DNA of 64,000 bases from Rhodanobacter sp. B05 (GTDB taxonomy: Bacteria > Pseudomonadota > Gammaproteobacteria > Xanthomonadales > Rhodanobacteraceae). Every line of letters begins with the position of its first letter. The stretch's first letter is position 1. Below, one piece after another: positions 7,061-53,157 of the stretch. The stretch lies in the NCBI RefSeq assembly GCF_002001085.1, contig NZ_MUNU01000019.1:186001-250000 (forward strand), read 5' to 3'. Under the pieces are notes generated by a model, which searched no databases, was not told the origin of the DNA, and saw nothing but the letters and a program-made list of their open reading frames with translations. A program made the position numbers and the translations under genes.

Positions 7061-7176
7061 AATGAGGAGTGAGTGAAGAGGAGTGAGGAGTGAGAGAAAG
7101 CAACGGCGAGTTCGGGCGATGCCGGAGTGGAAGCCCTTCTCTCACTTCTCACTCCTCTTGCCTCACTCCTCGCTTT
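7061..7176. repeat. Long hairpin of GAGTGAGGA-type repeats between trpB and trpA
   Basis: The left arm (about 7061-7100) repeats GAGTGAGGAGTGAG-like units. The right arm (about 7137-7176) is its inverted copy with roughly nine in ten bases matching over about 38 bp, around a loop of some 36 nt. It would fold into a strong stem in the trpBA transcript. It looks like a repeat that entered the operon rather than a coding remnant. Confidence 0.7.
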
Positions 7177-37280: not shown

Positions 37281-37384
37281 GCTGACTCCGGTCGGTAACG
37301 ATGCCACCCGATTCGGTCGGGCGTAAAACGACAAAAATACATGGTCGGGACACCCCCGCGCCAGCCACCCGCGCCGCCGTCCCC

Positions 37385-37512
37385 GTAGGAGCCCGCTCGC
37401 GGGCGATGCTCTTTTTTCGGGATTCGGGATTCGGGATTCGGGATTCGGGATTCGGGATTCGGGATTCGGGATTCGGGATTCGCAAGAGCATCGCCCGCCA
37501 GCGGGCTCCTAC
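37385..37512. repeat. GTAGGAGC inverted repeat flanking nine GGGATTC heptamers
   Basis: Left arm GTAGGAGCCCGCTCGCGGGC... (37385-37413) and right arm (37484-37512) are 29-nt inverted copies with one mismatch. Between them lie nine perfect tandem copies of GGGATTC (37419-37481). The right arm supplies the TAG stop of the FMN reductase gene. The arms belong to the same family as 9411-9503 and 47982-48010. Whether the heptamers are a slippage expansion in the loop is inference. Confidence 0.8.
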
Positions 37513-38060
37513 GACGGGCCGAAGGGGATCTCGGTGAGGAGGACATCCAGCGCTGTACGCAATTCCGTGCAGCGTTCCGCACTGGCCAGCACCTGGGCCG
37601 CCGTGCAGCCGGCCCCCGGCAGCGCCACCGGCACCGGCTGCGACGTCAGCAACTGCGCGGACATGGTGGTCAGGATTTCCGCCAGTGCCTCCTGCGCATG
37701 GTACGAACCACGCGCCGCGGTGTTCAGTAGCAGGATTGGCTTGCCCGGAAATTCCAGGCTGCCCACCAGCCAGTCGAGCAGATTCTTGAATGCGCCGGGC
37801 ACGCCGTGGGCGTATTCGGGGCAGGCGATCAGCAAGGCATCCGCGCGACCGACCACTTCACGCAGCGCCTGCACCGATGCGGGCACGGCATCGGCTTCAT
37901 CATCCGGATTGAACAGCGGCAAGCTGCCGAGGCCGTCGTACAACACCAGCTTCAGCGTCGCCGGTGCCAGCTGTTGCGCGGCCTGCAACGCGGCGGTATT
38001 CGACGACAGCCGGCGCAGGCTGCCGCACAGGCAGAGCACGCGCCGTGCCGGCGCCGTCAT
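37509..38060 (-). CDS. NADPH-dependent FMN reductase family protein
   Basis: The 183-residue flavodoxin-like protein has the FMN loop LCLCGSLRRLSSNTAAL, LIACPEYAHGVPGAFKNLLDWL and LLNTAARGSYHAQEAL. The family (SsuE/ArsH/azoreductase type) passes electrons from NADPH to flavin or quinones. It starts inside the end of apbC (4-bp overlap). Its stop codon is part of the GTAGGAGC repeat, so the last residues (GPS) may not be the ancestral end. Confidence 0.9.
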   Translation of the reverse strand: MTAPARRVLCLCGSLRRLSSNTAALQAAQQLAPATLKLVLYDGLGSLPLFNPDDEADAVPASVQALREVVGRADALLIACPEYAHGVPGAFKNLLDWLVGSLEFPGKPILLLNTAARGSYHAQEALAEILTTMSAQLLTSQPVPVALPGAGCTAAQVLASAERCTELRTALDVLLTEIPFGPS

Positions 38061-52423: not shown

Positions 52424-52858
52424 ATGCGCTGGTTGCTGTCCCTGCTCGCCGTTTTCGGTCTCGCCGCCTGCACCGCCGCTCCGCCGGCACATGCTGCCGG
52501 CCATGTCGACAAGCTCACCACCATCGACACCACGGTCGGCACCGGCGCCGAAGCCAAGCCCGGCATGAAGGTCACCGTGCACTACACCGGCTGGCTGTAT
52601 GACGACAGCGCCAGGAACAAACACGGCAGCAAGTTCGACAGCTCGCGCGATCATGGCGAACCGTTCTCGTTCGTGCTCGGCGCAGGCAACGTGATCGAGG
52701 GCTGGGACCTGGGTGTGGCCGGCATGCGCGTGGGCGGCAAGCGCACCCTGCTGATCCCGGCTGCGCTCGGCTATGGCGCGAACGGCGCCGGTGACGACAT
52801 TCCGCCGAACGCCTCGCTGGTATTCGACGTGGAACTGCTGGACATCAACACACCTTGA
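52424..52858 (+). CDS. FKBP-type peptidyl-prolyl isomerase, lipoprotein or periplasmic
   Basis: The 144-residue protein has a signal with a possible lipobox (VFGLAAC) and one FKBP domain: [51 protein letters not shown] and [12 protein letters not shown]. It assists folding in the periplasm. Start at the ATG 52424 with signal. The MITE-like element begins 3 bp after its stop. Confidence 0.93.
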
Positions 52859-52861
52859 GCC

Positions 52862-53157
52862 CTAGGGATGCCCTGATCTATTCAACGCAGGCGTCACCGG
52901 TCATGTCTGTCTGCAGCTGGGTGGCGTGCCGGCGAAGGCAGGCTGGCCGCCTGTCGAGACGGTGCACCGCACAGATGTGGGCAGACATGACCGGCCCGAA
53001 CCGATTGAAAACAAGGATGAAGGGTGATGTCCAGAAGGCCCGCAGGCGGCAGCGCGCGGCTTGCCAAGGCGGCCAGCCTTGCCTGCGCCACGCACTGCCG
53101 CCTGCGAACCTTCTGGACATCATGCCGCCTGTGCTGAATAGATCAGGGCATCCCTAG
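52862..53157. mobile_element. MITE-like palindromic element with perfect 23-bp terminal repeats
   Basis: The first 23 bases (52862-52884, CTAGGGATGCCCTGATC...) are the exact inverse of the last 23 (53135-53157). Inside lie hairpin 1 (CCGGTCATGTCTG at 52897-52909 with its inverse at 52982-52994) and hairpin 2 (GATGTCCAGAAGG at 53026 with its inverse at 53109; GCAGGCGGCAG at 53042 with its inverse at 53095). The loops of the two hairpins are also inversely related (GGCTGGCCGCC). No coding frame of note. Outer CTAG or TA on both sides would be the target duplication. Confidence 0.85.

Follow-up and report, generated by a model that had tools for sequence, protein, structure and literature searches.

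The 296-bp element at positions 52862-53157 of the window (the whole 64,000-nucleotide stretch of Rhodanobacter sp. B05 DNA that was analysed) is probably a MITE that is moved in trans by an IS5-family transposase and that carries a conserved core of two hairpins, each of them selected on one strand. Its new aspect is the conserved, inverted and apparently strand-selected hairpin pair, which recurs phylum-wide with changing ends; otherwise, it is a MITE with IS5-type ends.

All coordinates of the element given in an earlier note on this DNA were reproduced; it has a 288-bp interior with a flanking CTAG duplication, a perfect 23-bp inverted repeat (52862-52884 and 53135-53157), and two hairpins whose tips are inversely related in the window copy (CTGGCCG and CGGCCAG). 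Over 35 bp, the end arms are 91% complementary. The outer CTAG is preferably taken as duplicated target, which leaves 19 perfect bp for the terminal repeat proper. The element is short, has no transposase gene and is bounded by terminal inverted repeats, as is typical of MITEs, and it begins 3 bp beyond the TGA (52856-52858) of an FKBP-type gene, as that note had placed it. The features are as follows:

52424-52858, + strand: FKBP-type gene, outside the element (PF00254, FKBP_C, E 6.2e-33)
52862-52865, no strand: left target duplication CTAG, in keeping with the YTAR duplications that flank related copies of IS and MITE
52866-52884, + strand: left terminal inverted repeat GGATGCCCTGATCTATTCA, with like ends on the IS5-family IS of congeners; an imperfect extension reaches 52896
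52894-52994, + as favoured folding strand (fold energies, wobble counts): hairpin A (HpA)
52995-53024, no strand: small central stem (P3, a 4-pair helix) and AT-rich spacer between the hairpins
53025-53122, - as favoured folding strand (models, covariation, energies): hairpin B (HpB), inverted homologue of HpA
53135-53153, - strand: right terminal inverted repeat, pairing with the left repeat
53154-53157, no strand: right target duplication CTAG, repeating the left CTAG

Folded as DNA, the element reaches -116.3 kcal/mol, while shuffled sequences have a mean of -60.7 (z -14.0; 0/200 shuffles as stable), in agreement with the cloverleaf-like fold suggested earlier. The description as two nested hairpins was right in the number of hairpins but not in their nesting; with an end stem followed by hairpin A, a small central stem and hairpin B, the fold is more aptly called a cloverleaf. 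P3 has double changes in 2 of its 4 pairs in the alignment and is weak in the window copy. Two further candidates were rejected by eye: a kissing loop between the hairpin tips, which are complementary in the window copy and not in L003 or L023, and a small ORF across HpB, the inner part of which is inverted in L033 with the fold intact.

A search with the end sequence, of the kind that the earlier note had proposed, gave matches in 27/45 genomes of the genus, own counted. Six full copies at 77-100% identity, the window copy among them, are present in the own genome, together with one internally deleted copy of ~117 bp that retains both ends (L007, G000:C13:359429-359545). At E <=0.001, the whole element matches 41/100 genomes (own counted), every one within the own family. 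In total, 75 distinct MITE copies were collected, seven of which were dropped because their end pair was unreadable. Among the remaining 68 copies, an exact 4-bp repeat flanks 20, and all 20 repeats are YTAR; the 48 copies without an exact duplication fit decayed copies, which is not proof of decay. In plasmid and phage searches, neither the window element nor the L190 element had a match, while the L304 element matched five plasmid records and no phage; the exact HpB pattern was absent from the viral contigs searched.

Orthologous sites that lack the element were identified for L032 (against L259, 79.8% over 762 bp), for L033 (against L226, 78.5% over 698 bp) and, less cleanly, for L006 (against L241, 72.9% over 818 bp). 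These are three of five junction-spanning matches; of the other two, one (L180 against L241) repeats the L006 locus, and in the other L175 matched nothing but itself. At the locus of L006, which lies in the own genome, another genus also carries an element (L180), and L241 is apparently empty. Two congeneric genomes share the insertion of L003 and L026; their flanks are similar, and the elements themselves have diverged. In the search for an empty site of the window copy, 44/45 genomes matched the query in some part; none of the 29 congeneric FKBP loci retrieved has an A-type end, but their far flank differs, so that the empty site is not base-precise. Thus, the check for empty sites that the earlier note had called for succeeded with other copies and only imprecisely with the window copy. 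The multiple copies, the YTAR duplications and the empty sites of other copies support a non-autonomous transposable element. That the element is young is supported only in part, its closest sister copy being 93% identical and the own assembly showing no intact helper IS at the thresholds used.

The end search also exposed a 1.1-1.2-kb (~1.19-kb) IS with the ends of the window element in four congeners (G026, G003, G012 and G033); two further genera also have an IS with these ends (L315, and L317 with a stop within the frame). The transposase of L099 belongs to the IS5 family (NCBIfam NF033581, E 5e-103). An exact 4-bp YTAR duplication flanks 12 of the 14 IS copies with both ends readable, a count that excludes nine further stretches showing one end only. 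The case that would have spoken against a mobile element, a single copy with no matching IS, is therefore not what we found: there are six full own copies and a same-ended IS in congeners. At the thresholds used, the own 19-contig assembly yielded no transposase sequence beyond a divergent one and a remnant of 46 residues, though an intact own IS could be concealed by repeats that collapsed at the ends of contigs.

The earlier note had left the target open between CTAG, fitting the IS5 group, and TA, fitting IS630-type transposition; the former stood and the latter did not. The window copy itself is neutral, since its palindromic CTAG cannot separate TA from CTAG; by contrast, IS copies flanked by the non-palindromic pairs CTAA/CTAA and TTAG/TTAG show that the repeat has 4 bp, and the partner IS is IS5 by profile. 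An IS630-type element with TA duplication is therefore scarcely credible. Given the matching ends, an IS5 transposase presumably moves the element in trans. The element interior (52897-53122) had no blastn match at E 1 or better among the 14 IS loci, although a diverged parent IS may lie behind it; hence, we describe the element as mobilised by, and not derived from, that IS.

Moreover, the cloverleaf core occurs between other ends. Within the own family it is also flanked by end types B (TTAAGGCAACGCTGATC..) and C (GAGCCTGTTCATGATC..), the sequence similarity of type C to the core lying mainly in the HpB tip; one short-form C-type element is present in the own genome (L154, G000:C11:433701-433788). 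A covariance model of HpB (R1) matched 97/197 family genomes at E 1e-4 and, being narrower, just 4/369 genomes of the class, own counted. A broader model (R3), trained partly on the three outside matches of R1, matched 52/369 class genomes (41/272 genera) and 28/398 phylum genomes at E 0.001, own counted in both and 12 of the phylum matches belonging to other classes; the E-values of these models are rough, as calibration was quick. The HpB matches that we inspected mostly lie within ~270-bp elements bearing other terminal repeats, and the named carriers include Rhodanobacter, Dyella, Azotobacter chroococcum and Halomonas sp.

A check made independently of the model asked for exact inverted repeats with arms of >=14 bp and a total span of 230-330 bp. 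After six short loci had been set aside, such repeats were present at 25/36 loci and at 0/144 shifted positions. L307 and L308 had entered this set through a blastn search, and L296 was its one member from the own family; the training loci L185 and L186 were both misses. The spans are 252-273 bp in 21 of the 25, and there are at least 10 clearly different end sequences. Two of these, GGAAACGCTGATC and GGAAACTCTG, resemble IS5-type ends. A parent IS was searched and not found for end types B and C, and none was noticed by eye for the TAGTACTC.. ends. In G294 and G309, one MITE end is matched 63 and 49 times (<=3 mismatches), with many close pairs; this end expansion is large, and an IS partner was not noticed. 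Among 28 loci scanned, no Rfam 15 family matched above its gathering score inside the elements; the above-threshold matches, RNase P in L043 and tmRNA in L211, lay outside them. We found no description of such an element family in the open-licence PMC literature, and it may be described elsewhere.

The core might instead be a REPIN-like unit with its own mobility that is merely nested in IS ends. The use of one hairpin as an inverted pair recalls head-to-head REP dimers, as treated in the available excerpt of PMC3733652, and 11/36 loci lack an inverted repeat of >=14 bp in the tested span; the repeats flanking the other 25, however, suggest that the ends do the moving, and we regard independent mobility as very improbable. 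With the trans-mobilised MITE as the preferred reading, a wider one is possible and we put it forward tentatively, as falling a little short of an even chance: the elements could be long-lived, phylum-wide cloverleaf satellites of ~270 bp, in which one RNA motif in two inverted copies is orientation-proof and the ends are exchanged freely to suit one CTAG-targeting transposase or another.

The stems of the core covary. Among 23 aligned interiors, 27 of the 69 consensus pairs have double changes, paired cells amount to 98.0% vs 90.0% in shuffled alignments, and double-change cells number 128 vs 35.5; none of 500 shuffles reached any of the five covariation measures. A wider set comprised 48 hairpins at 42 loci, with hardly any from the own family, and was aligned by fitting to the model; here, paired cells (88.9% vs 64.5%) and double-change cells (190 vs 52.5) again exceeded shuffled values, while pairs with a double change (14 vs 11.0; 9/500 shuffles) and pair types (39 vs 36.6; 108/500) were not clearly above them. 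HpA and HpB are inverted homologues: at E <=1, the HpB model finds HpA, inverted and ~104 bp off, at 14/42 loci, six of which remain at E <=0.001. In seven elements (L045, L049, L050, L157, L168, L174 and L179), HpA contains an extra module with the loop CATGGATG on a variable base-paired stem, which we take to resemble a CsrA/RsmA-binding hairpin.

Double changes in stems would also arise if the element were an ordinary IS5 MITE with palindromes kept by arm-to-arm templated repair or as cruciform DNA, i.e. with no selection on one strand, and the inversion of inner HpB in L033 is what a cruciform could produce. Arm correction and cruciforms treat the two strands alike, and against this stand the strand preferences of the hairpins. 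HpA (span 52893-52996) folds to -69.4 kcal/mol on the + strand and -52.7 on the - strand; the values for HpB are -76.2 and -91.1. In the family elements, 64 of the 75 having had strand energies computed, HpA folds better on + in 63/64 and HpB on - in 63/64. In the wider set, counting primary matches and dropping two short loci for HpA, HpA favours + in 35/40 and HpB - in 37/42, with shifted control windows at 76/162; all six second matches agree, and a recount minus training and own-family loci gave 33/38 for HpB and 32/36 for HpA.

Wobble pairs show the same polarity. On one strand of 57 of the 75 elements (a length filter and seven named exclusions removing the rest), G·U:A·C is 172:11 in HpA and 11:221 in HpB for pairs predicted on either strand, and 97:8 and 4:101 at covarying pairs alone, the sequences being related and the counts thus not independent. 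The polarity is less marked (39:26 overall; HpA 29:9, HpB 9:15) when the count is restricted to pairs that both strands are predicted to form. A strand-wide mutation bias would give HpA and HpB the same sign, and selection on RNA or single-stranded DNA predicts opposite polarity in the two arms, which neither cruciforms nor arm correction do. We therefore consider the ordinary palindromic MITE unlikely. Much of the polarity may be inherited. As judged from these sequence patterns, selection appears to act on each arm as a single strand, whether RNA or DNA, that is read from its own end towards the middle of the element.

The 68 insertions lie between tandem (36), divergent (22) and convergent (10) genes, and background gaps at the same loci between 110 tandem, 49 divergent and 41 convergent, with neighbours called within 600 bp by a home-made caller that misses some genes, the FKBP gene among them; one insertion was flagged as gene-interrupting. 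A terminator function, as the earlier note suggested, or more fully a domesticated bidirectional terminator or mRNA-end element, would suit strong, intergenic hairpins that lie mostly near called genes, one of which (L032) occupies precisely the gap from one stop codon to the following start codon. Yet of the marks of an intrinsic terminator, neither a T-run after the stems nor enrichment between convergent genes (10/68 vs 41/200 background gaps) was seen, and 0/29 congeneric FKBP loci have an A-type end. Accordingly, the terminator claim was not supported, and we regard this explanation as quite improbable.

For the preferred reading, a MITE mobilised in trans with a strand-selected core, we propose the following mechanism. 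A CTAG/YTAR-targeting IS5-family transposase would recognise the 19-bp ends and mobilise the MITE-type element in trans. The interior would be no recognisable IS remnant but a conserved core, one hairpin motif occurring twice, inverted around a central stem, and within Pseudomonadota this core would be carried between ends of many kinds. Selection would act on each hairpin in its folded single-stranded form, most likely as RNA, in the direction leading from its own end into the element, so that a transcript from either side would meet the favoured hairpin first, whatever the orientation of the insertion. As for the role, the hairpin might make read-through RNA compact and either protein-bound or protected, and insertion beside genes might then be tolerated; the gene context supports this idea only in part, since read-through from a neighbour is not expected at the 22/68 insertions between divergent genes.

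The genomes in which elements with different ends have this interior in common represent many families of Pseudomonadota and two or more of its classes. If the reading is true, the hairpin motif would be a novel functional RNA that mobile DNA carries along, and a structured RNA family would spread through genomes via borrowed transposases. Wobble polarity would likewise make it easy to test other palindromic repeats computationally for selection at the level of one strand. Elsewhere, the window holds two further inverted repeats: a REP-like inverted pair (GTAGGAGC..) around a run of TTCGGGA heptamers at 37384-37513, and a 35-bp inverted repeat of GAGTGAGGAGTGA type at 7064-7171, 91% complementary with arms 38 bp apart.

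Among known systems, the IS5 family (NF033581), as represented by the ~1.19-kb congeneric IS, shares terminal sequence and YTAR target with the element, whereas the element has no transposase gene and an interior unmatched to the 14 IS loci. In bcr1 of Bacillus cereus, structure is thought to matter; likened by description and not by sequence, bcr1 resembles the element as a MITE with structure but comes from another phylum. It is listed among MITEs in the available excerpt of PMC3733652. MITEs are usually regarded as deletion derivatives of one IS, according to the excerpt of PMC3189936, which also covers MITEPsy1 of Pseudomonas syringae, a non-autonomous element listed as 'IS5?' with a 4-nt CTAG or YTAA duplication and demonstrated transposition. 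MITEPsy1 is thus like the window element in being non-autonomous, in its IS5-type listing and in its CTAG-type 4-nt duplication; unlike it, MITEPsy1 has 100 nt and is derived by its authors from ISPsy2, and that excerpt describes no double-hairpin core (PMC3189936). Finally, REPs and REPINs resemble the element in their inverted hairpin pairs and mostly intergenic location, but as described in the excerpted text, REPs are 20-40 bp long and tagged by GTAG or CGTC, whereas the element is ~270-296 bp long with terminal inverted repeats and a target duplication (PMC3733652).
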